From: Tessaracoccus massiliensis
GTDB taxonomy: Bacteria; Actinomycetota; Actinomycetes; Propionibacteriales; Propionibacteriaceae
DNA length: 64,000 nt
NCBI RefSeq assembly: GCF_000826065.2
Contig: NZ_LN623542.1
Coordinates: forward strand, 404,715 to 468,714
Direction of reading: 5' to 3'
Of this stretch, positions 8,553-26,111 are shown in pieces (the first letter of the stretch is position 1; every line of letters begins with the position of its first letter). The notes under the pieces were generated by a model, which worked only from the letters and a program-made list of their open reading frames with translations, was not told the origin of the DNA and did not search any database. Made by a program: the position numbers and the translations under genes.

Positions 8553-9836
8553 ATGACCCATCAGCACCAGTCTGCCCTAAAGGGCTTGATCAATGAACTC
8601 CTCGACGGGAATCAGCACCTGGAACGCGGTGAGGCCCAGCGGCGGCTGCTGGAGGCCGCGATGCAGGAACTGATCGAGGCCGAAGTCACTGCCCGGATCG
8701 GCGCGGGCCGCTACGAACGCAACCCGGAGAGAGTCACCCGCCGCAACGGCACCCGGGAGAAGAAGCTGGCCACCCCTTCTGGCACGTTGGAGCTGCAGAT
8801 CCCGAAACTGCGCGAAGGATCCTTCTTCCCCTCGTTGCTGGAGCCCCGCCGCCGAGTTGATCAGGCGTTGTGGTCAGTGATCGCTCAGGCCTGGATCGGT
8901 GGCGTCTCGACCCGCCGGGTCGACGCGCTGGTCAAGGCATTGGGCACCGAGGCCGGGATCTCACGCTCCACGGTGTCTCGGATCTGCTCCCAGATCGATG
9001 AGTACGTCGACGAGTTCCTGACGAGGCGTCTTGACGAAGCCTCAGGCTGGTATCCCTACCTCTGGCTGGATGCCACCTACCTCGATGTCCGTATCGGCGG
9101 GCGGGTCGTGTCCCAGGCCGTCGTGATCGCCACCGGTTGCGCGGTCAACGGACACCGCCAAGTGCTGGGCATGGCCATCGGTGATGCGGAAACCACCGAC
9201 TTTTGGACCGAGTTCTTGCGCTCTCTGCGAGACCGCGGACTCAAAGTCGCCAGCCCATCCGATCCACTCGGGGTTGCCGTGGTCGTCTCCGACGCCCACG
9301 AAGGTTTGAAACACGCGATCAAGGCGATCCTGCCCGGAGCTGCCTGGCAACGCTGCCGGGTCCACTTCGCCCGCAACGTGACCCGCGCGCTCGGCTCGGC
9401 CCGCTCCAAGCCCGTCAACGCACTGATCGGCACCATCTTCGCCCAAACCACCGCTGAGGCCGTCGAGGCCTGCTACAAACACGTCACCGCGTCCCTCGAG
9501 GCCTCCGGGTTCACCGAGATCGCCGGCATGCTCGACAAAGCACAAAACGACCTGACAGCCTTCGCGAAAATGCCAACCGAGCACTGGCGCAAGATCTGGT
9601 CGAACAACCCCATCGAACGCCTCAACCGAGAGATCAAACGCCGCGCTGACGTCGTCCAGATCTTCCCCGACCGCGGCTCCGTGACCCGCCTCATCGGCGC
9701 GATCCTGCTCGAACAACACGAAGAATGGCACTACGGCGAACGCCGCTACCTCTCCGAAACCTCCATGCGCCGCCTCATCGACATTCTCCATGAGCACACC
9801 GACACACCCCTCGACCGCCTCCCCCTAACCGCCTAG
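8553..9836 (+). CDS. IS256-family (Mutator-type) transposase
   Basis: This 427-residue transposase looks intact. Features in order: N-terminal TRRNGTREKKL region, first catalytic Asp in LDATYLDVR, second in VVVSDAHEGL, the CRVHFARN motif, and the catalytic Glu region NNPIERLNREIKRR. The stop TAG is part of the CTAG that served as target for the IS1182-family insertion, so the coding sequence is complete although its element is interrupted directly after it. Confidence 0.97.
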   Translation: MTHQHQSALKGLINELLDGNQHLERGEAQRRLLEAAMQELIEAEVTARIGAGRYERNPERVTRRNGTREKKLATPSGTLELQIPKLREGSFFPSLLEPRRRVDQALWSVIAQAWIGGVSTRRVDALVKALGTEAGISRSTVSRICSQIDEYVDEFLTRRLDEASGWYPYLWLDATYLDVRIGGRVVSQAVVIATGCAVNGHRQVLGMAIGDAETTDFWTEFLRSLRDRGLKVASPSDPLGVAVVVSDAHEGLKHAIKAILPGAAWQRCRVHFARNVTRALGSARSKPVNALIGTIFAQTTAEAVEACYKHVTASLEASGFTEIAGMLDKAQNDLTAFAKMPTEHWRKIWSNNPIERLNREIKRRADVVQIFPDRGSVTRLIGAILLEQHEEWHYGERRYLSETSMRRLIDILHEHTDTPLDRLPLTA

Positions 9837-11673
9837 GAGGGCGCTGAACAAGGCGCGATCTCTGCGTCGCGTTCGAGGTGGGTGGCGGGCGGACGCCACC
9901 AATGGGCCGTCGAGCGGCATTTCAGGTCAGCACTCTGGGTGCGACAACGGGGTCTTTCCGCCCGTCCTTTGGGCATTTCGCGCGGCTGTCGGGGCGGCTG
10001 CAAGGGGGCCGGCCGCGACCGGTCAGCCCAGGACCCAGGTCCCGTTCTGGTACTGCAGGCCCATGGTGAGGAGGCGGCGCAGGTTGAGTGCTGCGACGCG
10101 GTGGTGGAGCCAGTTGTTGTTCTTCTCCACGCCGCGGTAGGGGACGCGACGGGCTCCGTGGGTAAGCCAGGCGATGGAGCGTTCGACCATCGGACGGTGC
10201 TGTCGGTAGGTGGCCTGGAAGCTTTCGTCGGTAGCGCGTTTGCGGTGCGCGCGTTGAAGCAGGTCGTGCTCGTGGAGCACCAGTTTGCGGCCGCGTTTGG
10301 CGGTGGTGCATCGGGGTCGCAGTGGGCAGCCCGAGCAGGCGGACTCGAAGGTGACGGTGTTCTTGGCCGACACCGGTCGGGTGACGCCGGCCGGGCAGGT
10401 CACCGTCCCGGCGTCGGTGTCACGGACGAAGTCGTCGAGGGTGAACCCGTCGGGCACCGCCGGCCGCAGCGGCCAGGGCTTGATGATCGGTTCGTGGCCG
10501 GCCTGGTCGAGGTCGTGGAGCATCTCGCCGGTGCCGTAGGCAGAGTCGGCCAGGACCTCGACCGGCTGGCCTTCGCCGATCGTGGTGTCCTCGGCGAACA
10601 GGGCCGCGCCCACGTTGGCGTCGGAGTTCGCAGGGCCGCTGGACTTGGTCGCCTTGACCGCAGTGGTCAGCCCTGTGTCGGGCTCGACGACCACGTGGGC
10701 CTTGTAGCCGTCCTGGCGCCGTTCGCGGGTCTTGTGGGCGTGCCGGGTGTCGGGGTCGACGGTCGAGATCACCCGGTCCGGCGCGGTCCGCCGCGCGATT
10801 CGCCAGCGGCCGTCGGTGCCGTCGGAGTCCTCGGCCGGCTCGACGTCTTGGCCCGCGACCAACGCCAACAGGGCGACCGCTTCGGCCGGCTTTCCGCCGT
10901 TCTTGGTGATCGTCTCGATGTCGAGGGCGGCGAGCAGCGCCAGCGCATCGTTGACCAACGCGGTGACCAGCTCATCGCGCGCCGCGGGATCGTCCCACAA
11001 GATCGGCGGCTTCCCTGCCGAGCTGTAGTCCTGACCGGTCAGCACAGCCAGCCGGATGCACTCGGTGGCGATCAGGTCCTTGGCGCCGGGCACCTCGCGA
11101 CCGACTCGGCGGATCTGGGCGATCAACTGGGTAACGGTGTCCTGGCGGGCAACCGCGTCATCGAGGATCGTCGAATCCAGCGCCCGGCGCTGCCTGCCCG
11201 CCACCGCCCCGGTTTCGGCAATCACGTCGCGGACCACCTCGAAGATCCGCTGCGGACGGTCGCTGGCCGCAAGCCGACGCCGCCAGTAGGTCAACGTCGA
11301 GGGATCGAAGCCCGCCTTGTCGATCGCGTATCCGCACGCCGCCTTCCATCGCAGATCGAAGGTCAACGCGTCGACCGCTTCGCGGTCGGAGTGGCCGTAC
11401 AGCGCCTGCAGCACGATCACCGAGGCGATCACCTCACCCGGGATCGAGGGCCGCCCACGGCCAGAGGGAAACAGGTCCGCAAACAAGGTGCTCGGGAACA
11501 GCCGGTCCCGATGCTCGGCCAGCAGCGCGAACACACTGCCCGACTCGAGCAGATGCCCGGCCACCGATTCCACGTCCAGCAGTTCGCGCTGCCGATCAGA
11601 CTCACCCTGCATACGCACAGGATTTCAGCCCCACCCGCCGACCGTGGGAGGCGCGCCTTTGTTCAGCGCCCTC
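9837..11673 (-). mobile_element. IS1182-family element nested in the IS256-family element
   Basis: Inverted ends GAGGGCGCTGAACAA...: left at 9837, right (reversed) at 11673. The element is flanked by a CTAG duplication at 9833-9836 and 11674-11677. The 1837-bp element carries one intact transposase on the minus strand, opposite to its IS256-family host. About 190 bases between the left end and the transposase stop hold no gene. Confidence 0.9.
10023..11618 (-). CDS. IS1182-family transposase
   Basis: This 531-residue DDE transposase has the IS1182/IS5-superfamily order: an N-terminal domain with GRGRPSIPGEV and LRWKAACGY, the first Asp in ALDSTILDDAV, a long insertion, the second Asp in VLADSAYGTGE, a cysteine-rich stretch (CSGCPLRPRC), and the Glu in MVERSIAWL. 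Length is normal and no stop breaks it, so it is probably active. A long open frame on the opposite strand is its shadow. Confidence 0.96.
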   Translation of the reverse strand: MRMQGESDRQRELLDVESVAGHLLESGSVFALLAEHRDRLFPSTLFADLFPSGRGRPSIPGEVIASVIVLQALYGHSDREAVDALTFDLRWKAACGYAIDKAGFDPSTLTYWRRRLAASDRPQRIFEVVRDVIAETGAVAGRQRRALDSTILDDAVARQDTVTQLIAQIRRVGREVPGAKDLIATECIRLAVLTGQDYSSAGKPPILWDDPAARDELVTALVNDALALLAALDIETITKNGGKPAEAVALLALVAGQDVEPAEDSDGTDGRWRIARRTAPDRVISTVDPDTRHAHKTRERRQDGYKAHVVVEPDTGLTTAVKATKSSGPANSDANVGAALFAEDTTIGEGQPVEVLADSAYGTGEMLHDLDQAGHEPIIKPWPLRPAVPDGFTLDDFVRDTDAGTVTCPAGVTRPVSAKNTVTFESACSGCPLRPRCTTAKRGRKLVLHEHDLLQRAHRKRATDESFQATYRQHRPMVERSIAWLTHGARRVPYRGVEKNNNWLHHRVAALNLRRLLTMGLQYQNGTWVLG

Positions 11674-11871: not shown

Positions 11872-11941
11872 GGGTCTGCTGCACGAGTAGGTGACATCTG
11901 AGGTGGCTAGCCCGGGAGGGTTAGCCTGGAAGGATGTCATC

Positions 11942-12235
11942 ATGCCCAAGCCGTTTCCCAAGGAGTTCCGCGACGATGTTGTTCGCGTGGCGCTGAGCCG
12001 TGATCCGGAGGTCACGTTGGCGCAGATCGCGAAGGACTTCGGCGTGCACGTCGGCACGCTGGATAAGTGGATGCGTCAAGCCAGGATCGATGCCGGTGGA
12101 CAGACCGGTTCGACCACGACGGAAAGCCGGGAGCTGCGCGAGCTGCGCAAACGCAACAAGCTGCTGGAGCAGGAGAATGAGGTGCTGCGCCACGCTGCGG
12201 CGTACCTGTCGCAGGCGAACCTGCCGGGAAAATGA
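11942..12235 (+). CDS. IS3-family OrfA, copy 1
   Basis: This 97-residue protein combines a helix-turn-helix (PKEFRDDVVRVALSR, then IAKDFGVHVGTLDKWM) with a coiled-coil tail (LRELRKRNKLLEQENEVL). The ATG at 11942 fits other OrfA proteins, while an in-frame start 51 bases earlier would begin inside the IS leader. It overlaps orfB by four bases. Copy 1 has His where copy 2 has Arg in the tail (LRHAAAY versus LRRAAAY). Confidence 0.93.
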   Translation: MPKPFPKEFRDDVVRVALSRDPEVTLAQIAKDFGVHVGTLDKWMRQARIDAGGQTGSTTTESRELRELRKRNKLLEQENEVLRHAAAYLSQANLPGK

Positions 12236-13146
12236 TGTACCCGCTCGTCCGCGAGCTGGCCGCGACCGACGCCCCGCTGCGGGTGCCGGTCGCGGTGACG
12301 TGCCGGGTACTGGGACTGGCGTGCCAGCCCTACTATCGGTGGCTGGCGCAGCCGGTCACCGATGCCGAGATCACCGAGGCCTACCGCGCGAATGCGCTGT
12401 TCGATGCCCACCGCGACGACCCGGAGTTCGGCTACCGATACTTGCTCGATGCGGCTGCCGACGCCGGTGAAGTGATGGCCGAGCGGACCGCGTGGCGGAT
12501 CTGCTCGAACATGCGCTGGTGGTCGGCGTTCGGTAAGAAACGCGCCAAGAACGGCAAGAAGCCCGGTCCACCGGTGCACGACGACCTGTGCGCCGTCACC
12601 GATGAGCACGGTGTTACTCGGCACGAGTTCTCCGCTATAGCGGCGAACGAGCTCTGGCTGGCCGATATCACCGAGCACCGCACCGGCGAGGGCAAGCTGT
12701 ATCTGTGCGCCATCAAGGACGCCTACTCGAATCGGATCGTGGGCTACTCGATCGATTCGCGGATGAAGTCCCGGCTCGCGGTCGCCGCCCTCAACAACGC
12801 CGTCGCCAGGCGCGGTGAGGTCGCCGGCTGCGTCCTGCACACTGACCGCGGCAGTCAATTTCGCAGCCGGAAATTCGTGCGGGCCCTGCATCGTCACGAC
12901 ATGGTCGGCTCGATGGGGCGAGTCGGTGCAGCTGGTGACAACGCGGCCATGGAGAGCTTCTTCGCGTTGCTGCAAAACAACGTCCTGGACCGCCGCACGT
13001 GGGCCACCCGAGAGGAGCTACGGATCGCGATCGTGACCTGGATCGAGCGGACCTACCACCGACGACGTCGCCAGAGCACGCTCGGCCGCTTGACCCCCAT
13101 CGATTACGAGACCATCATGAGCAAGCCAGCCGACCAGGCTGCGTAA
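12232..13146 (+). CDS. IS3-family OrfB transposase, copy 1
   Basis: This intact 304-residue transposase has the HTH_21-like GYRYLLDAAADAGEVM region, then the DDE integrase core: Asp in LWLADITEHR, Asp in LHTDRGSQF and Glu in MESFFALLQNN, ending with RRRRQSTLGRLTPIDYE. It is coupled to orfA by an ATGA overlap and is identical in translation to the inverted copy at 19156-20070. Confidence 0.97.
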   Translation: MMYPLVRELAATDAPLRVPVAVTCRVLGLACQPYYRWLAQPVTDAEITEAYRANALFDAHRDDPEFGYRYLLDAAADAGEVMAERTAWRICSNMRWWSAFGKKRAKNGKKPGPPVHDDLCAVTDEHGVTRHEFSAIAANELWLADITEHRTGEGKLYLCAIKDAYSNRIVGYSIDSRMKSRLAVAALNNAVARRGEVAGCVLHTDRGSQFRSRKFVRALHRHDMVGSMGRVGAAGDNAAMESFFALLQNNVLDRRTWATREELRIAIVTWIERTYHRRRRQSTLGRLTPIDYETIMSKPADQAA

Positions 13147-13182
13147 CTAGGAACTGTCACCTATCCGTGCAGCAGTCCCGTC

Positions 13183-13612
13183 GTAGGTGTTCAGGCGCTG
13201 CTGGCTGAGGCTCTACTTCGCCTGCGGTTAGGTAGCAGCGGTGGTTGGTGCACGCAGTGATCCATGGAAGACGCCAGATCAGCAGGTGCGCACCGTTGAC
13301 CGAGCACTGTGAGCACCGGGTACGCCGCCCCACCCAGGTCCAGGGCCGTCCCTGACCCGTCGTGGTCTGTCGCAGATGGCCGGGGAGGGCTCCTCCGGCC
13401 CACCTGTTCAGGGTCAAGGCGAGGACATCGCCCGGCCCAAGGCGGGTGAGGCTGACCGCTTTGTCCATCTGGTCCGGCGTGAGGATGTCGTCGTTGGGGA
13501 CCCCGATGTCGCTGCACAGCCTGTCGAGATTCACGGCGTTGAGTTGGGCGAGGCGTTGCAGAAATGATGACCACGATTCCCCAGCAACGGGATGTGGCCA
13601 CGTGCTGGGCAA
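13183..13612 (-). pseudogene. tniQ: TniQ-family remnant
   Basis: The frame starts abruptly at the IS256-type remnant and reads WPHPVAGESWSSFLQRLAQ, which is the TniQ opening (PxPGES-x-SxLxRLA). A zinc-finger part follows with Cys pairs in RCSQC and the C-x2-H of ACTNH. It is cut at its other end by IS3 copy 1. TniQ serves target choice in Tn7-like and Tn5053-like transposons. No tniA or tniB is seen, so this is probably debris of such an element. Confidence 0.7.
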
Positions 13613-13908
13613 CCTGCTGGCCGAAGCGTCGCCGGACATGATGCGCCAGCTGCTGCAGAACATGATCAACCAGCTCCTGTCTGCTGATGCCGACCAGGTC
13701 TGCGGCGCCGACTGGGGCCAAGCATCGGCGGGCCGGCTGGTTCAGCGCAACGGCTACCGACACCGACCCTTGGACACCCGCGTCGGCGCCGTCGACGTCG
13801 CCGTCCCCAAGCTGCGTTCCGGGACCTACTTCCCGGAGTGGCTCTTGGAGCGCCGCAAACGCGCCGAAGCCGCTTTGATCACCGTGATCGCAGACGTCTT
13901 CCTCTCGG
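13604..13908 (+). pseudogene. IS256-family transposase, N-terminal remnant
   Basis: About 100 residues match the start of Mutator-type transposases: MMRQLLQNMINQLLSADAD, then RLVQRNGYRHRPLDTRVG, VAVPKLRSGTYFP and ERRKRAEAALITVIADVFL. The frame then runs straight into unrelated sequence at about 13909, so all catalytic residues are missing. It is a different element from the intact IS256-type transposase at 8553. It truncates tniQ on one side and an operon gene on the other. Confidence 0.85.
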
Positions 13909-14086
13909 TGATGAACGAGGCTCCCGTGCGTTCCTCGAGGGACCAGTGCCGGGCTTCCACTATCCATGAGGGCGCCGGGTCGGTTCGTGCCCGGGCCGCG
14001 GCAACCTTCTTCGCGTACGCGTTGAGCCGTTGCCAGTCGATACTGCTGTGGTCGTATCCCTCGCGGATCTTCTGCCAGTCAGCCAT
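13909..14086 (-). pseudogene. Truncated paralogue of the 199-residue operon protein
   Basis: The first 59 codons (MADWQKIREGYDHSSIDWQ ... RHWSLEE) match the start of the neighbouring gene at 14192-14791 in layout: MA(A)DWQKIR-x-YD, then (N/T)YA(K/R)KVAA, then WxxxxRxWxxE. The frame is cut by the transposase remnant at about 13908. This shows the operon once held at least two copies of this protein type and extended further left. Confidence 0.7.
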
Positions 14087-14191
14087 TCATCCTCCTGGTC
14101 GTTGGTGTTGGCTCCTACGTTGGCTGGTTGCGATGCTGGCGCCACACAGGTGGTGTCCCGCGAGGCAGGATGTGCCCCGGCCACCTGGGGT

Positions 14192-14791
14192 TCAGGCTGG
14201 CAGCTTCTTGCCGCATTCGCTGCAGCGCCTGCTGCCCCAGAAGCTGCGGACGATGTCGGCGCCGCAACATGGTGACGTGCCAGGACGCCGCGGCGGTTTC
14301 GGAGGGGTCGCGGACTGTGGCCTCGGGTTCTGCAGCAACTGCTTCAGGAGTTTTGACAAGCCGACACCTTTGGCGTGCACGAGCAGTTTCCGGCCCGGCT
14401 CTCGGTTGGTGACGACTCCACTGTGGCCTCGTTCCGGGTTGTCAAAGTCGAACACGAGTGCATCGCGGGCGGTGAAGGGGTGTCTGGTCGCTTCCTCTGG
14501 GCTGATCCAGAACGGCTTGCTGGTCTCGGTCGTCTTGACCACTTGCTGAACCAGTGAGCCGTCGTAGAGCAGCAGCGTGTGCAGGATTTCCGATTCGGTG
14601 ACGATGTTGCCTTTTTGGCTGGGGCTTTCCCGGTGCCAGTAGCGGGTGTCCAGCACCCACGCGTCCGTCCCCTTCGGACAGCCGGCACGGCGCTTCTCAG
14701 CGGCGACCTTGCGGGCGTAGGTCTGGATTCGGTCCCACTCGAGGACGCTCCGGTCATACTCTTGCCGGATCTTCTGCCAGTCAGCGGCCAT
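14192..14791 (-). CDS. Uncharacterised operon protein with C-terminal zinc ribbon
   Basis: This 199-residue protein starts with MAADWQKIRQEYDRSVLEWD and has a long mixed middle (WVLDTRYWHRES; VFDFDNPERGHSGVV), a Pro-rich linker (PPKPPRRPG) and a C-terminal four-cysteine zinc ribbon made of PCCGAD and RRCSECGKK. The same CCGA...RRCSECG ribbon forms almost the whole 30-residue protein encoded just upstream. I do not recognise the family. No signal peptide or membrane segment is visible, so it is probably cytoplasmic. Confidence 0.75.
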   Translation of the reverse strand: MAADWQKIRQEYDRSVLEWDRIQTYARKVAAEKRRAGCPKGTDAWVLDTRYWHRESPSQKGNIVTESEILHTLLLYDGSLVQQVVKTTETSKPFWISPEEATRHPFTARDALVFDFDNPERGHSGVVTNREPGRKLLVHAKGVGLSKLLKQLLQNPRPQSATPPKPPRRPGTSPCCGADIVRSFWGSRRCSECGKKLPA

Positions 14792-14888
14792 CTATCTCTC
14801 CCTCGGGTTTGGGCTCCCCGTCGCGGTGCCGGTGCAGATGGTGGCCGGGGCTGCGTGATGGCCCCGGCCACCGCGGTGGTTGATTGGG

Positions 14889-14981
14889 TTAGGCTTTGTT
14901 GCCGCATTCGCTGCAGCGTCTCTGTTGGTGGTTGTCCATCTCGAAAGCTGCGCCGCAGCAGTCAGACAGGTTGTCACCCAT
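14889..14981 (-). CDS. 30-residue zinc-ribbon miniprotein
   Basis: From the ATG at 14981 to TAA at 14889-14891 the frame encodes 30 residues built around two cysteine pairs: SDCCGAAF and RRCSECGNK. This is the same ribbon as at the C-terminus of the next gene. It is too short for usual gene calling. Its place between two operon genes and the conserved ribbon support it being real. Function unknown; a stand-alone metal-binding domain is the obvious inference. Confidence 0.65.
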   Translation of the reverse strand: MGDNLSDCCGAAFEMDNHQQRRCSECGNKA

Positions 14982-15017
14982 GTTCTTCACCCCCTCCCCG
15001 CGCTCGCTCCGATACGC

Positions 15018-15404
15018 TCACTGGTATGGGAGCCGCTCGAGGTTCGCCTTCCAGTTGGCGAACGGTTTCCCCTTGGACCCGACGAAGAAGTTGATCGAGA
15101 TTGGTTGGAGGCTCTCCGTCTTCTCGGTGTTCGGGTAGATGGCGCTGCTCTCGACGTAACTGACGCTGTGGGACCAGAACGTCCCATCCGGCGCCAGAAT
15201 CGTCCAGCTGTTCCCCCACGCCTCCTTCCAGAAAGTGCTACCACCGGAAGGTGTCACGGAGTTGCTGTAGTTGTCTGAGTCGATCTCCCAGCCGGTGATG
15301 GATCGGCCGTCGTCGAGTGTCCACGTACGGGTCCTTTTGCCTCGTTGCTGCATCGCGGCGATGGTGTCGGCGACGGCCTGTTTGAAGTCGGCTTCGTAGT
15401 CCAC
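15018..15404 (-). CDS. Uncharacterised operon protein (128 aa)
   Basis: This protein starts at GTG 15404, two bases after the preceding gene, with a GGAG site overlapping that gene's stop. It has a helical start (FKQAVADTIAAMQQRG) and then a strand-rich part with many Trp and Ser residues (WTLDDGRSITGWEID; FWKEAWGNSWTILAPDGTFW). No membrane segment, signal peptide or known motif is seen. Family not recognised. Confidence 0.7.
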   Translation of the reverse strand: MDYEADFKQAVADTIAAMQQRGKRTRTWTLDDGRSITGWEIDSDNYSNSVTPSGGSTFWKEAWGNSWTILAPDGTFWSHSVSYVESSAIYPNTEKTESLQPISINFFVGSKGKPFANWKANLERLPYQ

Positions 15405-15406
15405 TG

Positions 15407-15703
15407 TTACTCCTGGACGGTTTGGTTCCTTATATGGTCAGGCATCCGATCGACGATGTACACGGCTAGTTCCCTCCAAGCCTCGAACTCAGCACCATGC
15501 GCGCCAGACATGTTCGTGAACACCCAATCGCCGGTCTCCATCCAGAAGTCGTCCGTGAGTTCCAGGAACGTGGACAGTTGATGGAGCGAGTTACGGAACC
15601 GGGGGCCTCCCTCAATGATCGAGAGGTGCCCGGCCTCGATTGCCTGTCCGGTTCCTTGCAGGGTAGCGAAGTGCTGCTCGAGGTAGGCGCGCGAGTCGCT
15701 CAT
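15407..15703 (-). CDS. Uncharacterised operon protein (98 aa)
   Basis: The ATG at 15703 overlaps the stop of the 54-residue gene (ATGA), so the two are coupled. The protein is mostly helical and acidic (MSDSRAYLEQHFATLQG; LHQLSTFLELTDDFW; AWRELAVYIVDRM). No cysteines, membrane segments or catalytic motif are apparent. Family not recognised. Confidence 0.7.
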   Translation of the reverse strand: MSDSRAYLEQHFATLQGTGQAIEAGHLSIIEGGPRFRNSLHQLSTFLELTDDFWMETGDWVFTNMSGAHGAEFEAWRELAVYIVDRMPDHIRNQTVQE

Positions 15704-15867
15704 CAGCTCTGCCCACTCGTGTGGGATTCCAGACCAGGGATCCGACGTTCGCTGTCGACGACGTCACGGTCCGCTTGGGGCCGGCACCGCTGTGCCGCAT
15801 ACTCCCCCTCCCTGATGGAGACGCGGTAGTCGCTGATTTCCCTCTTGAGATCTGCACGTGTTGGCAT
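15703..15867 (-). CDS. Uncharacterised operon protein (54 aa)
   Basis: The ATG at 15867 follows a GGGGGGA ribosome-binding site and encodes a small charged protein (MPTRADLKREISDYRVSIREG ending in LESHTSGQS). A longer frame upstream exists, but this start has the good ribosome site and overlaps neither neighbour. It couples to the next gene by ATGA. Family not recognised. Confidence 0.6.
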   Translation of the reverse strand: MPTRADLKREISDYRVSIREGEYAAQRCRPQADRDVVDSERRIPGLESHTSGQS

Positions 15868-15977
15868 ATCTGTCCCCCCTGGAGTGTGGTCGCACCTCCC
15901 TGGAGCCGGGCTCCGAGGCGCACTATTTGACAGTCGGGACCTCACATCGATGCGGGGCCCGCTGTAGCGAAGGAAGG

Positions 15978-16067
15978 TCAGCGAGCGTCGCCGCAGCCGA
16001 CACACTTCTTGTTGTTCGCGCCGTTCCTTGCGCCGCACTTGCCGCACACACCGTCATCGTTCGACAT
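15978..16067 (-). CDS. 29-residue zinc-ribbon miniprotein, first gene of the operon
   Basis: From ATG 16067 to TGA 15978-15980 the frame encodes 29 residues with two CxxC pairs: VCGKCGARNG and KKCVGCGDAR. A strong GAGGGGG ribosome-binding site stands eight bases before the start. Such short double-knuckle proteins are rarely annotated. Together with the 30-residue ribbon at 14889 it is the second stand-alone miniature metal-binding protein in this operon. Confidence 0.65.
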   Translation of the reverse strand: MSNDDGVCGKCGARNGANNKKCVGCGDAR

Positions 16068-16347
16068 TCGGATTCCCCCTCAGGATGTTGTGGTGCCTGG
16101 CGTCGGTGCCGAGCTCCCACCCGGACAATATCGGCCCGGAATGGAACTTGCAAGACCAAACCGAAACGGTGTCGGTGCTGCCTTGCCCCGTACGCATCGG
16201 ATCGTTGGCAGTGGGTCGCTTTGTGCCACACCAGTTGATTTGGCAGCAGAGAATCCGCAGGAGAACGGTGAAAAAGTAACGGTGGCAAACGAGCGGTACG
16301 ACCGGAAGTTCCTGCCCGGCATCAAGGTCGCATGGCAGGATGGGGTT

Positions 16348-17400
16348 ATGACATCAGGGGGGCTTCGGGGGCGTCGGCGACCACGTCCGACGATCAGGTT
16401 TCTGAGGTTGCTGCCATTTGATTCGTTTCCCGATGCGGATCAAGCACGCTGCATCGCGCAGGGTCGGTGGCAGGACATCGACATCAGCAGAATCAGACAC
16501 CCATTGATCGAGGACGCAGCACTGCGTTTCGCCCAGGGCGACCCGACGAAGCATCGAAGTTCTTCCGCGCTCGCCGACCGTCCCGTCTATGAAGTGCGAT
16601 CCCGCACCGGTGCTGGTTGGCGGGGGGCGGTCGTGCTCGATGATGCCGGGGACCCTTGGCTGATCTGGGCTGACAGGCATGACCAGTTTAACGATCATGC
16701 TGCTGACGCGTTGAAGAGAGCATCCATGCAGCACTGGCTTCCCAAGCCGGTGGAGTACAAGCTGCGGCTAAGGGATGACGCCGCCGAAGCCCACCGAGCA
16801 TGGAGGGTGGCCGCCGTGGCGACGTTCGTAGAGGTTGTGGCAGAAGCTCTGGAGAGCGCCGAGCAACGCTCAACCGTTCAGCTTGCCTGCGCAGATGGTG
16901 AGGAACTGAGGGTAGATGTGGAGCTTGACCATGACCTTCCCGGGGGACACCCCGAGGACGATACGTCTCTGCTGACAGTGATGATCCGGGTGGGAAGCCA
17001 GCAAGCCGACGATTTCCTACGGTTCGTCCTGCCTGCAATCCAGCCTGACACTTCCCGTATTGATGCCGTCTACGGGCGAGACTCCACGCTAGAAACCTGG
17101 GTGACGGTAAGCCAAGCGGAACTAACGCTGTTCATAGCAGCCGTCCGTCTGGCGGCAGCCCCCAACGGCGCGGAAGCGCTATGCGCACCCAACACCCACC
17201 TGCACTACGTGGACAAGTACACCCTCGCCGATCTGATGATCGAGGGCCGTGCAGCCCGCGGGATCTGCGGCTTCTGGTTCGTTCCCACCCGAGACGAGCA
17301 TGCCGCGCTGCCTGTCTGTCCGAAATGTGAGGCTCTCGAGCCGGCCGCAGAACGGACGGTTCATCTGATCCGTCAGGCGCTAGCCGTTGAGAACCTCTAG
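16348..17400 (+). CDS. DUF3039-containing protein with long N-terminal extension
   Basis: The last 60 residues match the DUF3039 pattern: HYVDKYTLADLMIEGRAA, then GICGFWFVPTRD and PVCPKCEAL, with three cysteines placed as a zinc site. The preceding 280 residues are not recognised; an acidic helical block (VAAVATFVEVVAEALESAE) lies near residues 150-170. ATG 16348 is used, but the frame is open for over 300 bases upstream, so the start may be earlier. The gene overlaps the convergent HTH gene by 21 bases. Plain DUF3039 proteins are under 100 residues, so the fusion is unusual. Confidence 0.7.
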   Translation: MTSGGLRGRRRPRPTIRFLRLLPFDSFPDADQARCIAQGRWQDIDISRIRHPLIEDAALRFAQGDPTKHRSSSALADRPVYEVRSRTGAGWRGAVVLDDAGDPWLIWADRHDQFNDHAADALKRASMQHWLPKPVEYKLRLRDDAAEAHRAWRVAAVATFVEVVAEALESAEQRSTVQLACADGEELRVDVELDHDLPGGHPEDDTSLLTVMIRVGSQQADDFLRFVLPAIQPDTSRIDAVYGRDSTLETWVTVSQAELTLFIAAVRLAAAPNGAEALCAPNTHLHYVDKYTLADLMIEGRAARGICGFWFVPTRDEHAALPVCPKCEALEPAAERTVHLIRQALAVENL

Positions 17401-17820
17401 TTCCTCAAGATCGGTTTCAGTTAGCGCGGCGGCACGATCCTGCACGGCCTTCAAACCGTGCTCGCGCGTTCCAAGGAGTTCATGGACATGGGCGTTGGCG
17501 CGTTCGTGGCGGTCGATGTAGTCAAGCAAGTCAGCCATAGCGATACGGCGGTGTGTGCCGACGCGACGGAATTCTAGAAGACCACGGTCCATGAGTTTGA
17601 GCAGATGTGGGCGACTGACCTTGAGCAGTTCCGCAGCTTCGGCCGGGCTGAGCTCGCTTCCCTGCTCCAGGAAGGTGATGTCCCTTCCGCGGTCCATTGC
17701 CTCGACGACGTACTGAAGCATGACCGCGATGGGCGAGCCAGATGGCAGCGTGCGGGCAAACTCGACGGTTAGTTCGAGCTCGGAATTCTTGACTCCATTG
17801 GCGTGCAGCGTGGTCGGCAT
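17380..17820 (-). CDS. Excisionase-type HTH protein, possible antitoxin
   Basis: This 146-residue protein has a winged helix-turn-helix of the excisionase/MerR type at its centre: LSPAEAAELLKVSRPHLLK, then RVGTHRRIAMADLLDYID. An N-terminal helical part and an acidic tail ending in LEELEVLNG flank it. This layout is common in antitoxins paired with a downstream PIN-domain toxin. Here the downstream position is occupied by the end of the convergent DUF3039 gene and no toxin is seen, so it may be an orphan antitoxin or an independent regulator. Confidence 0.72.
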   Translation of the reverse strand: MPTTLHANGVKNSELELTVEFARTLPSGSPIAVMLQYVVEAMDRGRDITFLEQGSELSPAEAAELLKVSRPHLLKLMDRGLLEFRRVGTHRRIAMADLLDYIDRHERANAHVHELLGTREHGLKAVQDRAAALTETDLEELEVLNG

Positions 17821-17882
17821 GGCCGTTCTCAACTTTCCCTGTCCTTGGTGTAGTAACTGTAACACCTGTCATAACTGTAACT

Positions 17883-18065: not shown

Positions 18066-18247
18066 CCGGGGACAGCTACCAGCACGGCTTCAAGGCCGGC
18101 TACAGCGCCGCGAAGCAGTTCTACGGGCTGGCGGCACGGGAGCGTCTGGAGCGCATCCAGCGGGCCACCGAGGAGCTGCAGGCCGATCGACTTGGCCGCA
18201 GCGATCTTACGAGAGGGACTCAGTGCTTCACAAGACTAGGGACGTGA
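18062..18247 (+). CDS. Small hypothetical protein, coupled chain gene 2
   Basis: This 61-residue protein is helical and charged (HGFKAGYSAAKQFYGLAARERLERIQRATEELQ). It starts in the stop codon of the previous gene and ends in a TGATG overlap with the next gene. Family not recognised. The double overlap suggests a three-gene translational unit. Confidence 0.5.
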   Translation: MTGDSYQHGFKAGYSAAKQFYGLAARERLERIQRATEELQADRLGRSDLTRGTQCFTRLGT

Positions 18248-18696
18248 TGATGCTGTCGGTCAGGCCAGCGTACGCGAAAGGGATTCTGACTGGGTCCAAG
18301 AGCGTGGAACTGCGCCGCACGCGACCGAGCATCAAGGGCGATCAGTTGACAGTCATCTACGCGTCGACCCCTGTCCAAGCCGTCATAGGTGCTTGCACGA
18401 TCAGCTGCGTGGAGAGCGGAGAGCCACAGGACCTGAAGTTGCGGTACCTGACCGAAGCTCAAATCAGCGAAGATGAATTCGATAGGTACTTCGAGGAAGC
18501 CGAAGTGGCTTGGGCGCTCCACCTCCGGCAATCGATGTTCTTCGAACAGCCCGTTTCGCTGGAACGCCTCAGGGCATCCTCAGTCCTGCCGGTCCAGAGT
18601 TGGCGGTTCCTTGATTGGCGAGCCTTTGCTGCTCTACTTACGTCAGAAAGCGACCGGATCAAGCTTGGGAATCTGTTAGCAAGTGGTTCGGGGTAA
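18247..18696 (+). CDS. ASCH/PUA-like domain protein
   Basis: The 149-residue product begins MMLSVRPAYAKGILTGSKSV and continues ELRRTRP ... VIYASTPVQAVIGAC, the pattern of ASCH/PUA-like proteins, which have an RNA- or nucleotide-binding fold. A second part FDRYFEEAEVAWALHL and SLERLRASSVLPVQSWRFL matches the longer members of this group. The start overlaps the previous stop. In actinobacteria such proteins often occur on plasmids, phages and islands; the ligand is unknown. Confidence 0.75.
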   Translation: MMLSVRPAYAKGILTGSKSVELRRTRPSIKGDQLTVIYASTPVQAVIGACTISCVESGEPQDLKLRYLTEAQISEDEFDRYFEEAEVAWALHLRQSMFFEQPVSLERLRASSVLPVQSWRFLDWRAFAALLTSESDRIKLGNLLASGSG

Positions 18697-18795: not shown

Positions 18796-19122
18796 ATGAT
18801 GGCGACGGTTGATTAGGTAATTGCTGCCTTCGATGCAGCGGGTTCGCAGTCGGAGCGTGGCACCAAGTTCGAAGAGTTGATGGTGGACTACTTTCAACTC
18901 GACCCCACTCTCTCCTCTCGCTACACCAACGTTTCTCGCTGGGTGGATTGGGCGCATCGCGGAGAGTCCCCGGACGTAGGGATCGACCTCGTTGCCCAAG
19001 ACAAGGAGACGGGCGGCTGGTCTGCGATCCAGTGCAAGTTCTTCGCCCCGAACCACTACCTCCGCAAGGAAGACATCGACTCCTTCTTCACCGCCTCCGG
19101 CAAGAAGTGGGACGGCGTCACC
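18796..19122 (+). pseudogene. N-terminal remnant of an Mrr-like restriction enzyme/helicase
   Basis: The frame MMATVD-stop-VIAAFDAAGSQSERG ... KFEELMVDYF, then PDVGIDLVAQDKETGGW and AIQCKFFAPN, matches the Mrr-type PD-(D/E)xK nuclease domain that starts large restriction helicases (D in GIDLVA, QCK motif). A TAG at 18814-18816 replaces a likely Gln codon near the start. The gene ends at 19122, where IS3 copy 2 begins, and its continuation is not found beyond that IS. Confidence 0.82.
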
Positions 19123-19155
19123 GGGACTGCTGCACGGATAGGTGACAGTTCCTAG

Positions 19156-20070
19156 TTACGCAGCCTGGTCGGCTGGCTTGCTCATGATGGTCTCGTAATC
19201 GATGGGGGTCAAGCGGCCGAGCGTGCTCTGGCGACGTCGTCGGTGGTAGGTCCGCTCGATCCAGGTCACGATCGCGATCCGTAGCTCCTCTCGGGTGGCC
19301 CACGTGCGGCGGTCCAGGACGTTGTTTTGCAGCAACGCGAAGAAGCTCTCCATGGCCGCGTTGTCACCAGCTGCACCGACTCGCCCCATCGAGCCGACCA
19401 TGTCGTGACGATGCAGGGCCCGCACGAATTTCCGGCTGCGAAATTGACTGCCGCGGTCAGTGTGCAGGACGCAGCCGGCGACCTCACCGCGCCTGGCGAC
19501 GGCGTTGTTGAGGGCGGCGACCGCGAGCCGGGACTTCATCCGCGAATCGATCGAGTAGCCCACGATCCGATTCGAGTAGGCGTCCTTGATGGCGCACAGA
19601 TACAGCTTGCCCTCGCCGGTGCGGTGCTCGGTGATATCGGCCAGCCAGAGCTCGTTCGCCGCTATAGCGGAGAACTCGTGCCGAGTAACACCGTGCTCAT
19701 CGGTGACGGCGCACAGGTCGTCGTGCACCGGTGGACCGGGCTTCTTGCCGTTCTTGGCGCGTTTCTTACCGAACGCCGACCACCAGCGCATGTTCGAGCA
19801 GATCCGCCACGCGGTCCGCTCGGCCATCACTTCACCGGCGTCGGCAGCCGCATCGAGCAAGTATCGGTAGCCGAACTCCGGGTCGTCGCGGTGGGCATCG
19901 AACAGCGCATTCGCGCGGTAGGCCTCGGTGATCTCGGCATCGGTGACCGGCTGCGCCAGCCACCGATAGTAGGGCTGGCACGCCAGTCCCAGTACCCGGC
20001 ACGTCACCGCGACCGGCACCCGCAGCGGGGCGTCGGTCGCGGCCAGCTCGCGGACGAGCGGGTACATCAT
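19156..20070 (-). CDS. IS3-family OrfB transposase, copy 2
   Basis: Its 304-residue translation is identical to that of copy 1 at 12232-13146, with the DDE residues in LADITEHR, HTDRGSQF and ESFFALLQ all present. It is coupled to orfA by an ATGA overlap. It should be active in principle and can supply transposase to both copies. Confidence 0.97.
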   Translation of the reverse strand: MMYPLVRELAATDAPLRVPVAVTCRVLGLACQPYYRWLAQPVTDAEITEAYRANALFDAHRDDPEFGYRYLLDAAADAGEVMAERTAWRICSNMRWWSAFGKKRAKNGKKPGPPVHDDLCAVTDEHGVTRHEFSAIAANELWLADITEHRTGEGKLYLCAIKDAYSNRIVGYSIDSRMKSRLAVAALNNAVARRGEVAGCVLHTDRGSQFRSRKFVRALHRHDMVGSMGRVGAAGDNAAMESFFALLQNNVLDRRTWATREELRIAIVTWIERTYHRRRRQSTLGRLTPIDYETIMSKPADQAA

Positions 20071-20360
20071 TTTCCCGGCAGGTTCGCCTGCGACAGGTAC
20101 GCCGCAGCGCGGCGCAGCACCTCATTCTCCTGCTCCAGCAGCTTGTTGCGTTTGCGCAGCTCGCGCAGCTCCCGGCTTTCCGTCGTGGTCGAACCGGTCT
20201 GTCCACCGGCATCGATCCTGGCTTGACGCATCCACTTATCCAGCGTGCCGACGTGCACGCCGAAGTCCTTCGCGATCTGCGCCAACGTGACCTCCGGATC
20301 ACGGCTCAGCGCCACGCGAACAACATCGTCGCGGAACTCCTTGGGAAACGGCTTGGGCAT
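20067..20360 (-). CDS. IS3-family OrfA, copy 2
   Basis: This 97-residue HTH plus coiled-coil protein is the same as copy 1 apart from Arg in place of His near the C-terminal end. The start codon at 20360 matches that of copy 1. Confidence 0.93.
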   Translation of the reverse strand: MPKPFPKEFRDDVVRVALSRDPEVTLAQIAKDFGVHVGTLDKWMRQARIDAGGQTGSTTTESRELRELRKRNKLLEQENEVLRRAAAYLSQANLPGK

Positions 20361-20633
20361 GATGACATCCTTCCAGGCTAACCCTCCCGGGCTAGCCACC
20401 TCAGATGTCACCTACTCGTGCAGCAGACCCCGATCCGAGAGCTACTTGGTCGCTGGGGCAGCTGTAACACTTCTACTGCAACATCGCGTTACAGGCGGGG
20501 ACTCACGACTAGAGGGCGGGTGGCGCCTTCGAGTCCGTAGACGGCCATCAGGTCGTCGGCCTTGACCACTGAACGCCTACTACGAGCGGCCGGCGATGCT
20601 CAGCCTGTTGGGTGATGTCGAAGGGCGCGAGGG

Positions 20634-24122: not shown

Positions 24123-25589
24123 TCAGCTGGTGGTGACAGCTGGCCGGTCCCAGGGGGTAGGAATGTGGTAGCCGCGGTAGCGGTACCTGGTCACCGGGAC
24201 GCTGGCGGCGCCGGTGAACCTCTTCCCGTTGTGAGCGAGGCGCCAGGTTCCGGGCAGGCAGTACCTGCGGCGGAGTTCCGGCCATCCGAGTCGGCGGTGC
24301 TTCTTGCGTAGCCATGCCGTGATCCGCTCCCACGTGTAGGAGTCGATCGCGGCGAAGGTTGCTTTGGCCACCGCATACCGGAAGTAGTTCGCCCATCCCC
24401 GCAGCACCCGCCCGAGATAGTCCATGAGGTATCCCGGGTCCTGGTGCAGGGTGTTCCTGTAGGTCATGGTCTTCACCCGCTGTCTGATCGAGGCGATCGC
24501 CTTCTTCGCGGGCAGGGTGTAGACGTACCACTTGTTGCTGCCTCGTCTCCGCATCCGTCGGATGTGGAAACCGAGGAAGTCGAACCCGTGGTCGATGTGG
24601 ACCACGCGGGTCTTCTCCGGCGACAGACGCAACCCCATCGGGGCCAGCACGTCTGCCACCTCGTGACGCAACTGCTCGGCGTGTTCCTGCTGACCCTTCA
24701 CCACGATGACGAAGTCATCGGCGTAACGGATCAGCCGGTAGGACGCTTTGCCGTGGTCACGGCGCCAGGCCCGCTTTCCGGCCGTGCCCATCTCATGGTC
24801 CCAGCGGCGAGTGAACTCGTCATCGAGGACTGATAGGGCAATGTTGGCCAGCAGCGGGGACAAGATCCCGCCCTGTGGGGTGCCGGTGATCGTCCCCTCG
24901 GTCGTGCCCACCGTGGTGAGCACTCCCGCTTTCAGGAACGCCTTGACCAGCGCGAGCACCCGCTTGTCACCGATCCTGCACCGGAGCCGGTCCATCAAGG
25001 CGGTGTGGTCGATCATGTCGAAACACGCCTCAATGTCGGCCTCCAGCACCCACTCATACGATTTGCTCGCGAAGTGGTGGATCTCGGCGACCGCGTCCTG
25101 CGCGCGCCGGTTAGGTCTGAACCCATAGGAGCACGACTTGAAGTCGGCCTCGAAGATGGGTTCCAGGACCAGCTTCAAAGCTGCCTGCACCACCCGGTCG
25201 GTCACGGTCGGGATGCCCAACTTGCGCAGCTTGCCGCTGGCCTTGGGGATCATCACCTGCCGCACCGGCACCGGCCTGAACTCTCCAGCCCTCAACTGGG
25301 CTCGAATGTTTCGCAGGAACTCCTCCACCCCGACCCCGGAACTGATCCGTGCCACGGTGACACGGTCCACCCCGGGAGTCTTGGACCCCTTGTTCCCGGC
25401 GACGCGTTCCCACGCCATCGTCAAGAACGCCGGATCACACACAAGGTTCCACAGGTCATCGAACCGGCGACCACCATCGGTGGCCGCCCAACCATGCAGC
25501 TTGGTCTGCATCCTCCGTACCCCCAGATAGGCCCGAGCATCGCTGGGCCATCCGGAGGCGCCGACATTCACCGGCGCGTCTTCGGACAT
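24123..25589 (-). CDS. ltrA: Group II intron reverse transcriptase/maturase
   Basis: This protein of about 488 residues has the RT domain (KLRKLGIPTVTDRVVQAAL; SYGFRPNRRAQDA; DIEACFDMIDH; TGTPQGGILSPLLANI; RLIRYADDFVIVV with the YADD catalytic pair) and a maturase domain X (LRGWANYFRYAVAK; ERITAWLRKKH). The C-terminal tail has no HNH endonuclease motif. ATG 25589 (MSEDAPVNV) is chosen, as homologues start near there; an in-frame start lies 45 bases earlier. It helps splicing and mobility of its own intron. It appears intact. Confidence 0.95.
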   Translation of the reverse strand: MSEDAPVNVGASGWPSDARAYLGVRRMQTKLHGWAATDGGRRFDDLWNLVCDPAFLTMAWERVAGNKGSKTPGVDRVTVARISSGVGVEEFLRNIRAQLRAGEFRPVPVRQVMIPKASGKLRKLGIPTVTDRVVQAALKLVLEPIFEADFKSCSYGFRPNRRAQDAVAEIHHFASKSYEWVLEADIEACFDMIDHTALMDRLRCRIGDKRVLALVKAFLKAGVLTTVGTTEGTITGTPQGGILSPLLANIALSVLDDEFTRRWDHEMGTAGKRAWRRDHGKASYRLIRYADDFVIVVKGQQEHAEQLRHEVADVLAPMGLRLSPEKTRVVHIDHGFDFLGFHIRRMRRRGSNKWYVYTLPAKKAIASIRQRVKTMTYRNTLHQDPGYLMDYLGRVLRGWANYFRYAVAKATFAAIDSYTWERITAWLRKKHRRLGWPELRRRYCLPGTWRLAHNGKRFTGAASVPVTRYRYRGYHIPTPWDRPAVTTS

Positions 25590-26111
25590 TACATTCACCT
25601 TCTTCTGCTTTCTCTCACTGCCGCCCTTCCCCATGTGACCGGCTTTCCCGGCCTCGGAGTACTACGGCGGCTCCGCCCCACCCACACCCTTCGGCAGGCA
25701 ACGCACCTATCCCCAAGAAGCGGGGAGCGGAATGCGGATGGTTCCCACGTTCACTGTTGTTCGGTTGACGGGCGAGGCGTCCGGCTTTACCCCTGCGGCA
25801 TCGTCGTGGCTACGCCGTAGACCTTCACCACGACCTGCCGGACCCGACACATACCACCGTTCCGACAGTTCCCCCCCCGCCACGACCATCAGCGACGGCC
25901 CCGACAAGCGGTTACGCACCGCAAACCAGCCCCGATCCACCGGGTTAGAGCTGGGCGACGATTAAGAGGCTTTACGACACCGGTTCCTCTCGTACACCTT
26001 CCCGTCTTGCTCACCAGACACGGCCCATCCGGTAGTACTGGACCGTCCTGACTTTGTCACGGCTGCTCCCACCCACCCCAGGCGTTCCCCCAGGACAGGC
26101 TGCCGTCAGCT

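Follow-up and report, generated by a model that had tools for sequence, protein, structure and literature searches.

A cluster of small minus-strand genes with putative zinc-ribbon miniproteins in an insertion sequence-bounded stretch of Tessaracoccus massiliensis

Gene layout and coding status

The stretch of Tessaracoccus massiliensis DNA analyzed here (64,000 nucleotides of contig NZ_LN623542.1, referred to as the window) carries an operon of small proteins on the minus strand at window positions 13909-16067. In order of reading, its frames are the 29-residue putative zinc-ribbon miniprotein P0006 (15978-16067), the 54-residue frame P0004 (15703-15867), the 98-residue protein P0003 (15407-15703), which is predicted to be all-helical, the 128-residue protein P0002 (15018-15404), which starts with GTG, the 30-residue putative ribbon miniprotein P0005 with a CC/CxxC pattern (14889-14981) and the 199-residue protein P0001 (14192-14791), composed of a family core and a C-terminal ribbon. 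A seventh frame, P0007, is a truncated paralogue of the 199-residue protein that extends from 14086 to a junction near 13909, where it is cut at an IS256-type insertion sequence (IS) fragment. This set of six leftward frames plus a truncated seventh, proposed in a first-pass annotation made from the letters of the window, is confirmed with all members on the minus strand. The same annotation described ATGA or near-zero spacing in two pairs, and good ribosome sites. The intergenic gaps are 110, -1, 2, 36, 97 and 105 bp in frame order; close packing is therefore restricted to the trio of 54-, 98- and 128-residue frames (gaps of -1 and 2 bp), with the remaining gaps ranging from 36 to 110 bp. The two tight pairs stand, but the -1 junction reads TGATG. 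Purine-rich ribosome sites are found 5' of every start except that of the 98-residue frame, whose start codon overlaps the stop of the preceding frame and has no such site of its own.

Codon usage was scored in all six frames of each region using seven other window open reading frames (ORFs), taken as genes, as the reference. The own frame ranks first of six in 7/7 frames, with scores slightly below zero for the 29-, 30- and 54-residue frames and the smallest own-frame margin for the 30-residue frame. Two ORFs of 25-60 residues that are preceded by a Shine-Dalgarno (SD) sequence and contain CC/CxxC...CxxC are observed, and any such ORF appears in 1/400 dinucleotide shuffles, for a pattern that was picked after the data had been seen. 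A scan of the stretch for promoters and terminators returned signals at chance level only. That the frames are chance ORFs in high-GC DNA is very improbable. Long spurious frames are common at high GC, and 86 ORFs of at least 25 residues are listed for 12-18 kb, but both codon usage and the shuffles speak against this explanation, as do homologues elsewhere for three frames: the 199- and 29-residue ones in other genera and the 98-residue one within the genus. It is refuted for these three frames, though not for the 54-residue frame, and the coding status of most frames is well supported.

The 199-residue family

None of the operon products matches Pfam or NCBIfam at curated cut-offs, comparison with PHROGs gives nothing significant and a PADLOC scan of eight proteins yields 0 matches at E <= 1, so no known anti-phage system is recognized among them. 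The earlier statement that no member matches a recognized family agrees with these scans. Of 72,556 plasmid records, two, both from Rhodococcus, contain homologues of the 199-residue protein. Others occur in M. barrassiae (the single relative in 26 candidate genome-contig stretches), in 2/197 genomes sampled from the window's own family (its own and G185) and in 2/401 genomes of another family (G962 and G1126), which is probably Mycobacteriaceae judging from PF05423 matches. An order-level search with a single-sequence query and a class-level profile search each recovered the window's own genome only (1/391 and 1/394 genomes, respectively). With so few matches per sample, the family is sparsely and unevenly distributed across them. 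The homologue in G185 is split over two frames and is therefore broken, either in the gene or in the assembly. The Rhodococcus plasmid pDF02 (NZ_CP016820.1, L006) has two equal-scoring homologue copies, at 112405 and 224609. An open-library search for two homologue accessions (WP_157127003 and WP_342661727) and one locus tag (IM25_RS26200) found no paper, which does not make the family unpublished.

The M. barrassiae and Rhodococcus members are ~45% identical to each other, and the window's protein is 27-29% identical to them. Across an alignment of six members, a small number of positions are invariant, among them a GVG close to the C-terminal end of the core. The C-terminal additions differ, being a ribbon in the window protein and, as read by eye, membrane-like segments in G1126. 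The truncated paralogue P0007 shares 43% identity with P0001 over residues 3-66 and aligns with the family at an hhalign probability of 96.6. Comparison of the family profile with solved structures gives nothing below E 0.18, and the best Pfam match for the six members is Crystall, in 1/6 at E 0.012. An AlphaFold2 (AF2) model built from three sequences has a predicted local distance difference test (pLDDT) score of 43 and is unusable. No relative of the family is found in viral contigs, and none in phages for the window protein; a match of the Rhodococcus homologue to four Rhizobium phage DNA polymerase genes (30% of its length, E 0.03) is taken as chance.

The two ribbon miniproteins

The 29-residue protein carries a ribbon of the form CGKCG..CVGCG, with CxxC...CxxC pairs, and the 30-residue protein one of the form CCGA..RRCSECG, with CC...CxxC, which is the type found at the C-terminus of the 199-residue protein. 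Two cysteine pairs as in zinc ribbons are thus present in all three, and zinc binding is predicted from these sequences. The cysteine patterns bear out the initial description of two four-cysteine ribbon products of ~30 residues; the CCGA...RRCSECG ribbon attributed to them is shared by the 30- and 199-residue proteins, and the 29-residue ribbon is of another type. The latter protein is little more than its ribbon, and it matches Zn_Ribbon_1 and RanBP-type ribbons below threshold (18.5 bits for PF13240, with a cut-off of 25).

A 35-residue homologue of the 29-residue protein, preceded by a good SD sequence, is encoded in M. barrassiae (L012:13819-13926, minus strand; tblastn E 7e-6) and clears the PF13240 cut-off (26.1 versus 25 bits). 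The two frames agree at 14/21 residues (67%), with nucleotide differences of 4/6/11 by codon position. Conservation at the codon level had been named as a check on the small frames, and the 29-residue frame passes it in this comparison, with synonymous codon differences at 7/14 identical residues. A profile of these two miniproteins proved specific in a control: 3/62 genomes are matched at E <= 0.01, the window's own at 4e-16 and two others within longer frames, one of 384 residues (E 0.004) and one of 185 (E 0.009). Because the cysteine pattern is generic to ribbon proteins, convergence could account for some of the similarity; common descent is favored because of the NNK.C.GCG.A stretch and the shared neighbors. 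Among plasmid records, the 29-residue protein has three matches at E 7-8, taken as chance. Adjoining the M. barrassiae miniprotein is a gene with cold-shock and IF2_N domains (L012:12152-13636) in which a RanBP-like ribbon is seen by eye. Ribbon miniproteins of another kind also occur: a 53-residue DnaJ-type zinc-finger frame lies just upstream of the Rhodococcus 199-residue homologues (L005:7236-7397 and L006:7237-7398), and similar frames of 68 and 34 residues are present at L024:11608-11814 and 11966-12070.

The ribbon-coding ends of the 30- and 199-residue genes are identical at 24/26 nucleotides, so that the 30-residue frame may be all that remains of the 3' end of a paralogue that has decayed. 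This raises the alternative of a decaying tandem array of 199-type genes, in which the truncated copy is a relic and at least one miniprotein is non-functional. The nearby truncated paralogue fits such an array, as do the small codon-usage margin of the 30-residue frame and its lack of a credible relative when it and the 54-residue frame were compared with the fetched homologue loci rather than whole genomes. In the other direction, the 30-residue frame begins 36 bp past the preceding stop, at a start codon of its own that a strong SD sequence precedes, and the 29-residue ribbon, of the other type, is conserved in M. barrassiae. The array is a doubtful explanation, albeit one to be taken seriously.

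The 98-, 128- and 54-residue products

A search with the 98-residue protein matched 3/197 genomes at E <= 0.01, namely its own, G129 and G148. The G129 match is credible: it lies in a genome of the same genus (L024:84-401, plus strand) with 29% identity and E 3e-12 (E 2.1e-9 in the genome search). The G148 match (E 6.5e-4) was dropped, being antisense to mur genes as read by eye. No relative of this protein is found in viral contigs, plasmid records or phages, and comparison with solved structures gives nothing below E 1.4. Single-sequence AF2 produced a best model that is helical with pLDDT 92, and four others at 42-62. A Foldseek search of the best model against PDB and BFVD returned no match at E <= 0.001. 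The highest VIA-align score (Z 9.4) was obtained with the helical repeats of CRM1 chains; this is within the chance range for helical models, and therefore no fold is claimed.

The 128-residue protein has no credible relative and no match in plasmids, viral contigs or phages. A match in G193 (E 0.007) was dropped as weak, with no gene recognized on that strand, and a match to L-lactate oxidase (E 0.0066) was rejected on per-domain scores of 8.7 bits. The protein shows no homology to two proteins beside the G962 199-residue homologue. The 54-residue frame likewise lacks a credible relative, giving chance-level matches only in the compared homologue loci.

Genomic context of the homologues

At each homologue locus, some of the neighboring genes were scanned. 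M. barrassiae holds homologues of the 199- and 29-residue genes and of the helix-turn-helix (HTH) and DUF3039 genes described below within 8.2 kb, in an arrangement that differs from the window, the HTH and DUF3039 homologues being situated past the 35-residue miniprotein frame. On the same strand, 0.4 kb downstream of its 199-residue homologue, are vWA, PP2C and kinase genes, and 2.2 kb upstream is a PDC-S06-type ATPase gene (E 2e-124). On the R. ruber plasmid, kinase, PP2C and vWA genes lie 2.8 kb from the homologue; no such triad is present in the stretch of pDF02 that was read, and an annotated restriction endonuclease of this plasmid is not matched by PADLOC. In G962, the 199-residue homologue lies 1.1 kb from a gene whose TIR-domain product has, by eye, a P-loop, and in G1126 the adjacent gene encodes an ATPase with matches to mad8 and HerA. 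The 98-residue homologue in G129 is 0.36 kb upstream of a gene for a large STAND-like protein, also with a P-loop seen by eye. The large P-loop proteins of G129 and G962 are one family (29% identity over ~900 residues, E 6e-59), and thus relatives of two operon genes, the 98- and 199-residue ones, are found near one P-loop family, at one locus each.

Several of these loci also contain conjugation genes, and the 199-residue family could instead be an accessory of conjugative plasmids or integrative elements, acting in maintenance, exclusion or transfer regulation, with the window holding remnants and the defense genes as fellow cargo. In R. ruber, where the plasmid is typed as conjugative, a MobF/TrwC relaxase gene lies downstream of the homologue; pDF02 is typed as mobilizable and holds the homologue gene twice; and the G185 contig encodes a coupling protein of the TraG/TraD type (E 2.5e-24) as well as an ATPase that is weakly TraG-like, below the cut-off. 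This evidence is drawn from those three loci and leaves aside the neighbors in G962 and G1126. Against it, the genes on the upstream side of the M. barrassiae island look, by eye, like chromosomal ones, and no conjugation gene was seen by eye among window ORFs of at least 180 residues in the first 32 kb, with no profile search for such genes. We regard a conjugative accessory role as unlikely.

Mobile-element and defense setting in the window

The operon stretch is bounded by two inverted IS3-type copies that are 99.9% identical, the left at 11872..13180 (plus strand, with an rve domain) and the right at 19122..20430 (minus strand). Between the left copy and the operon are a TniQ fragment (13160..13597, minus strand; PF06527 E 3.4e-14) and, within approximate limits of 13611..13908 on the plus strand, an N-terminal fragment of an IS256/Mutator-type transposase identified by eye in six-frame translation. 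IS insertions and deletions have disrupted the operon stretch at both edges. The proposal of an IS-bounded island near tniQ debris is therefore upheld. The accompanying idea that the operon was cargo of a lost transposon is not supported in the form of one composite transposon: as read by eye, a 3-bp repeat, GTC, flanks the left copy by itself, and the two copies differ in their outer flanks, so that a composite transposon was rejected and joint transposition of the two copies is not supported. Two more transposase genes (8553-11618; one of Mutator type and one of DDE_Tnp_1_6/DUF772 type) lie beside the left copy, and a group II intron reverse transcriptase/maturase gene (RVT_1, GIIM; 24123-25634) is found a few kb past the right one.

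Defense-type genes are located 2-3 kb from the operon. An ASCH-like protein (18247..18696, plus strand) matches the PADLOC candidate PDC-M11B at E 1e-24 and Pfam ASCH at E 0.01, below the cut-off. It is followed by a Type IIG restriction enzyme fragment comprising the N-terminal nuclease part (18817..19119, plus strand; REase_MTase_IIG E 1.6e-32, Mrr_cat_2 E 8.9e-25), which is cut by the right IS3-type copy. Of the suggested defense or stress cassette, the defense context is borne out by these two genes; the operon itself may serve either purpose.

Divergent from the operon is the gene for P0008, a 372-residue protein with a C-terminal DUF3039 domain (16282..17400, plus strand; PF11238 E 6.6e-12), and convergent with that gene is one for an HTH_17 protein (17380..17865, minus strand; PF12728 E 3.7e-12). 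P0008 shares its domain with DUF3039 proteins and differs from them in having ~300 extra residues and the HTH_17 partner gene. A P0008 profile matches 59/62 genomes, of which 55/58 non-window ones are matched over only ~48-56 positions at the DUF3039 end and G018 over ~104 positions. Long homologues are present in M. barrassiae and G057 (E 4e-76) and a partial one in G051, each with the HTH partner, which is convergent in G057, G051 and the window. The G057 pair has HsdM- and HsdR-type genes of a Type I restriction-modification (R-M) system upstream, and the G051 pair is adjoined by HmaA and HmaB. No relative of P0008 is found among plasmid records, and the long DUF3039 profile matches nothing among solved structures below E 0.099. 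The pair is a candidate regulatory or toxin-antitoxin-like guest, or guard, of defense loci.

Comparison with known systems

TerY-P systems consist of a vWA protein, a PP2C phosphatase and a Ser/Thr kinase with a C-terminal zinc ribbon or OB fold, and genes of the same composition lie beside the M. barrassiae and R. ruber homologues. The portion of the literature used here describes TerY-P triads as hypothetical metal-sensing phosphorylation switches in tellurite resistance, suggests that the kinase zinc ribbon possibly binds nucleic acid and reports related modules with an OB-fold kinase as anti-phage (PMC11090510). Zinc ribbons are common to TerY-P and the 199-residue family loci. The operon differs in that it contains none of the three TerY-P proteins, no product matching vWA, PP2C or kinase at E <= 1, and a 199-like extra member is not described in that portion of the source (PMC11090510). 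A TerY-P-like cassette for metal or tellurite stress, in place of defense, draws on the two triads and on their hypothetical metal-sensing role, but inspection by eye of window ORFs of at least 180 residues in the first 32 kb showed no triad gene, and the nearer neighbors in the window are defense genes; such a cassette is improbable.

Actinobacterial conflict systems, in the part of the source used, include kinase, PP2C and vWA genes as well as GAP1-N2 and STAND systems (PMC7159879), and STAND-like genes occur near homologues of two operon genes. The operon differs from the GAP1-N2 and STAND systems in having no recognized GTPase, GAP1, NTPase component or effector. No NTPase match of the STAND or NLR-like kind was obtained among the operon products or the scanned flanking genes.

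Interpretation

The reading we prefer, tentatively and with somewhat more doubt than belief, is that the operon stretch is the remnant cargo of an actinobacterial mobile defense island and includes a family of adaptors or sensors whose ribbons are either fused or separate. Its island-cargo status is well supported and a defense role is plausible; the adaptor or sensor mechanism is what we infer from the neighborhoods of the family. In this mechanism, the 199-residue family would supply the adaptor or sensor subunit to anti-invader systems that are regulated by a signal and built on either a vWA/PP2C/kinase triad or a STAND-like NTPase. The conserved core would receive the signal, and the zinc ribbon, whether fused C-terminally or supplied as a separate miniprotein, would dock the family to nucleic acid or a partner. 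As no kinase or NTPase partner is recognized in the window, the window copy would be orphaned or partnered from elsewhere.

A number of observations weigh against this reading. None of the homologue loci found repeats the complete operon order; of the gene-order recurrence that was to be looked for, only pieces are present, in M. barrassiae and G129. Triad or STAND-like neighbors accompany 3/6 other loci (R. ruber, M. barrassiae and G962), and defense neighbors were counted without a background rate for comparable islands. The M. barrassiae vWA and PP2C proteins have no PADLOC match. The STAND-like label of the G962 and G129 proteins rests on a P-loop seen by eye, Pfam having found no NTPase domain above cut-off in either and TIR in G962 only. 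The poor AF2 model provides no fold to support an adaptor. Within the operon, homology of the 128-residue protein to the 199-residue family is rejected by profile comparison (hhalign probability 1%), and the 98-residue profile matches 2/10 genomes or records, its own and G129, and no other that bears the 199-residue gene. A ribbon frame of the 29-residue type is present at just one other 199-residue locus, in M. barrassiae; both Rhodococcus loci carry a DnaJ-type ribbon miniprotein instead, and a scan of the G185, G962 and G1126 stretches for ribbon miniproteins found none. Lastly, the G057 and G051 loci of the DUF3039/HTH pair contain no credible homologue of any operon gene, so the pair can occur apart from the operon. 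Confidence was lowered because of the by-eye STAND label and these last two loci. A broader form of the preferred reading, an undescribed actinobacterial immune signaling family in which mobile adaptors work with interchangeable switches (triad or STAND-like NTPase) and with ribbons fused or supplied in trans by ~30-residue proteins, is distinctly unlikely.

Significance

Proteins of ~30 residues usually go unannotated. One of those described here has a distant actinobacterial homologue that adjoins homologues of the same three genes as in the window. The 199-residue family, which has no library match, tracks with mobile and defense-type loci. The DUF3039/HTH pair, found beside differing R-M and Hma systems, is a separate candidate regulator or guard. 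If the adaptor reading is true, the 199-residue family would be a new signaling component for actinobacterial defense islands and would offer a testable case of a zinc ribbon acting either fused or in trans.

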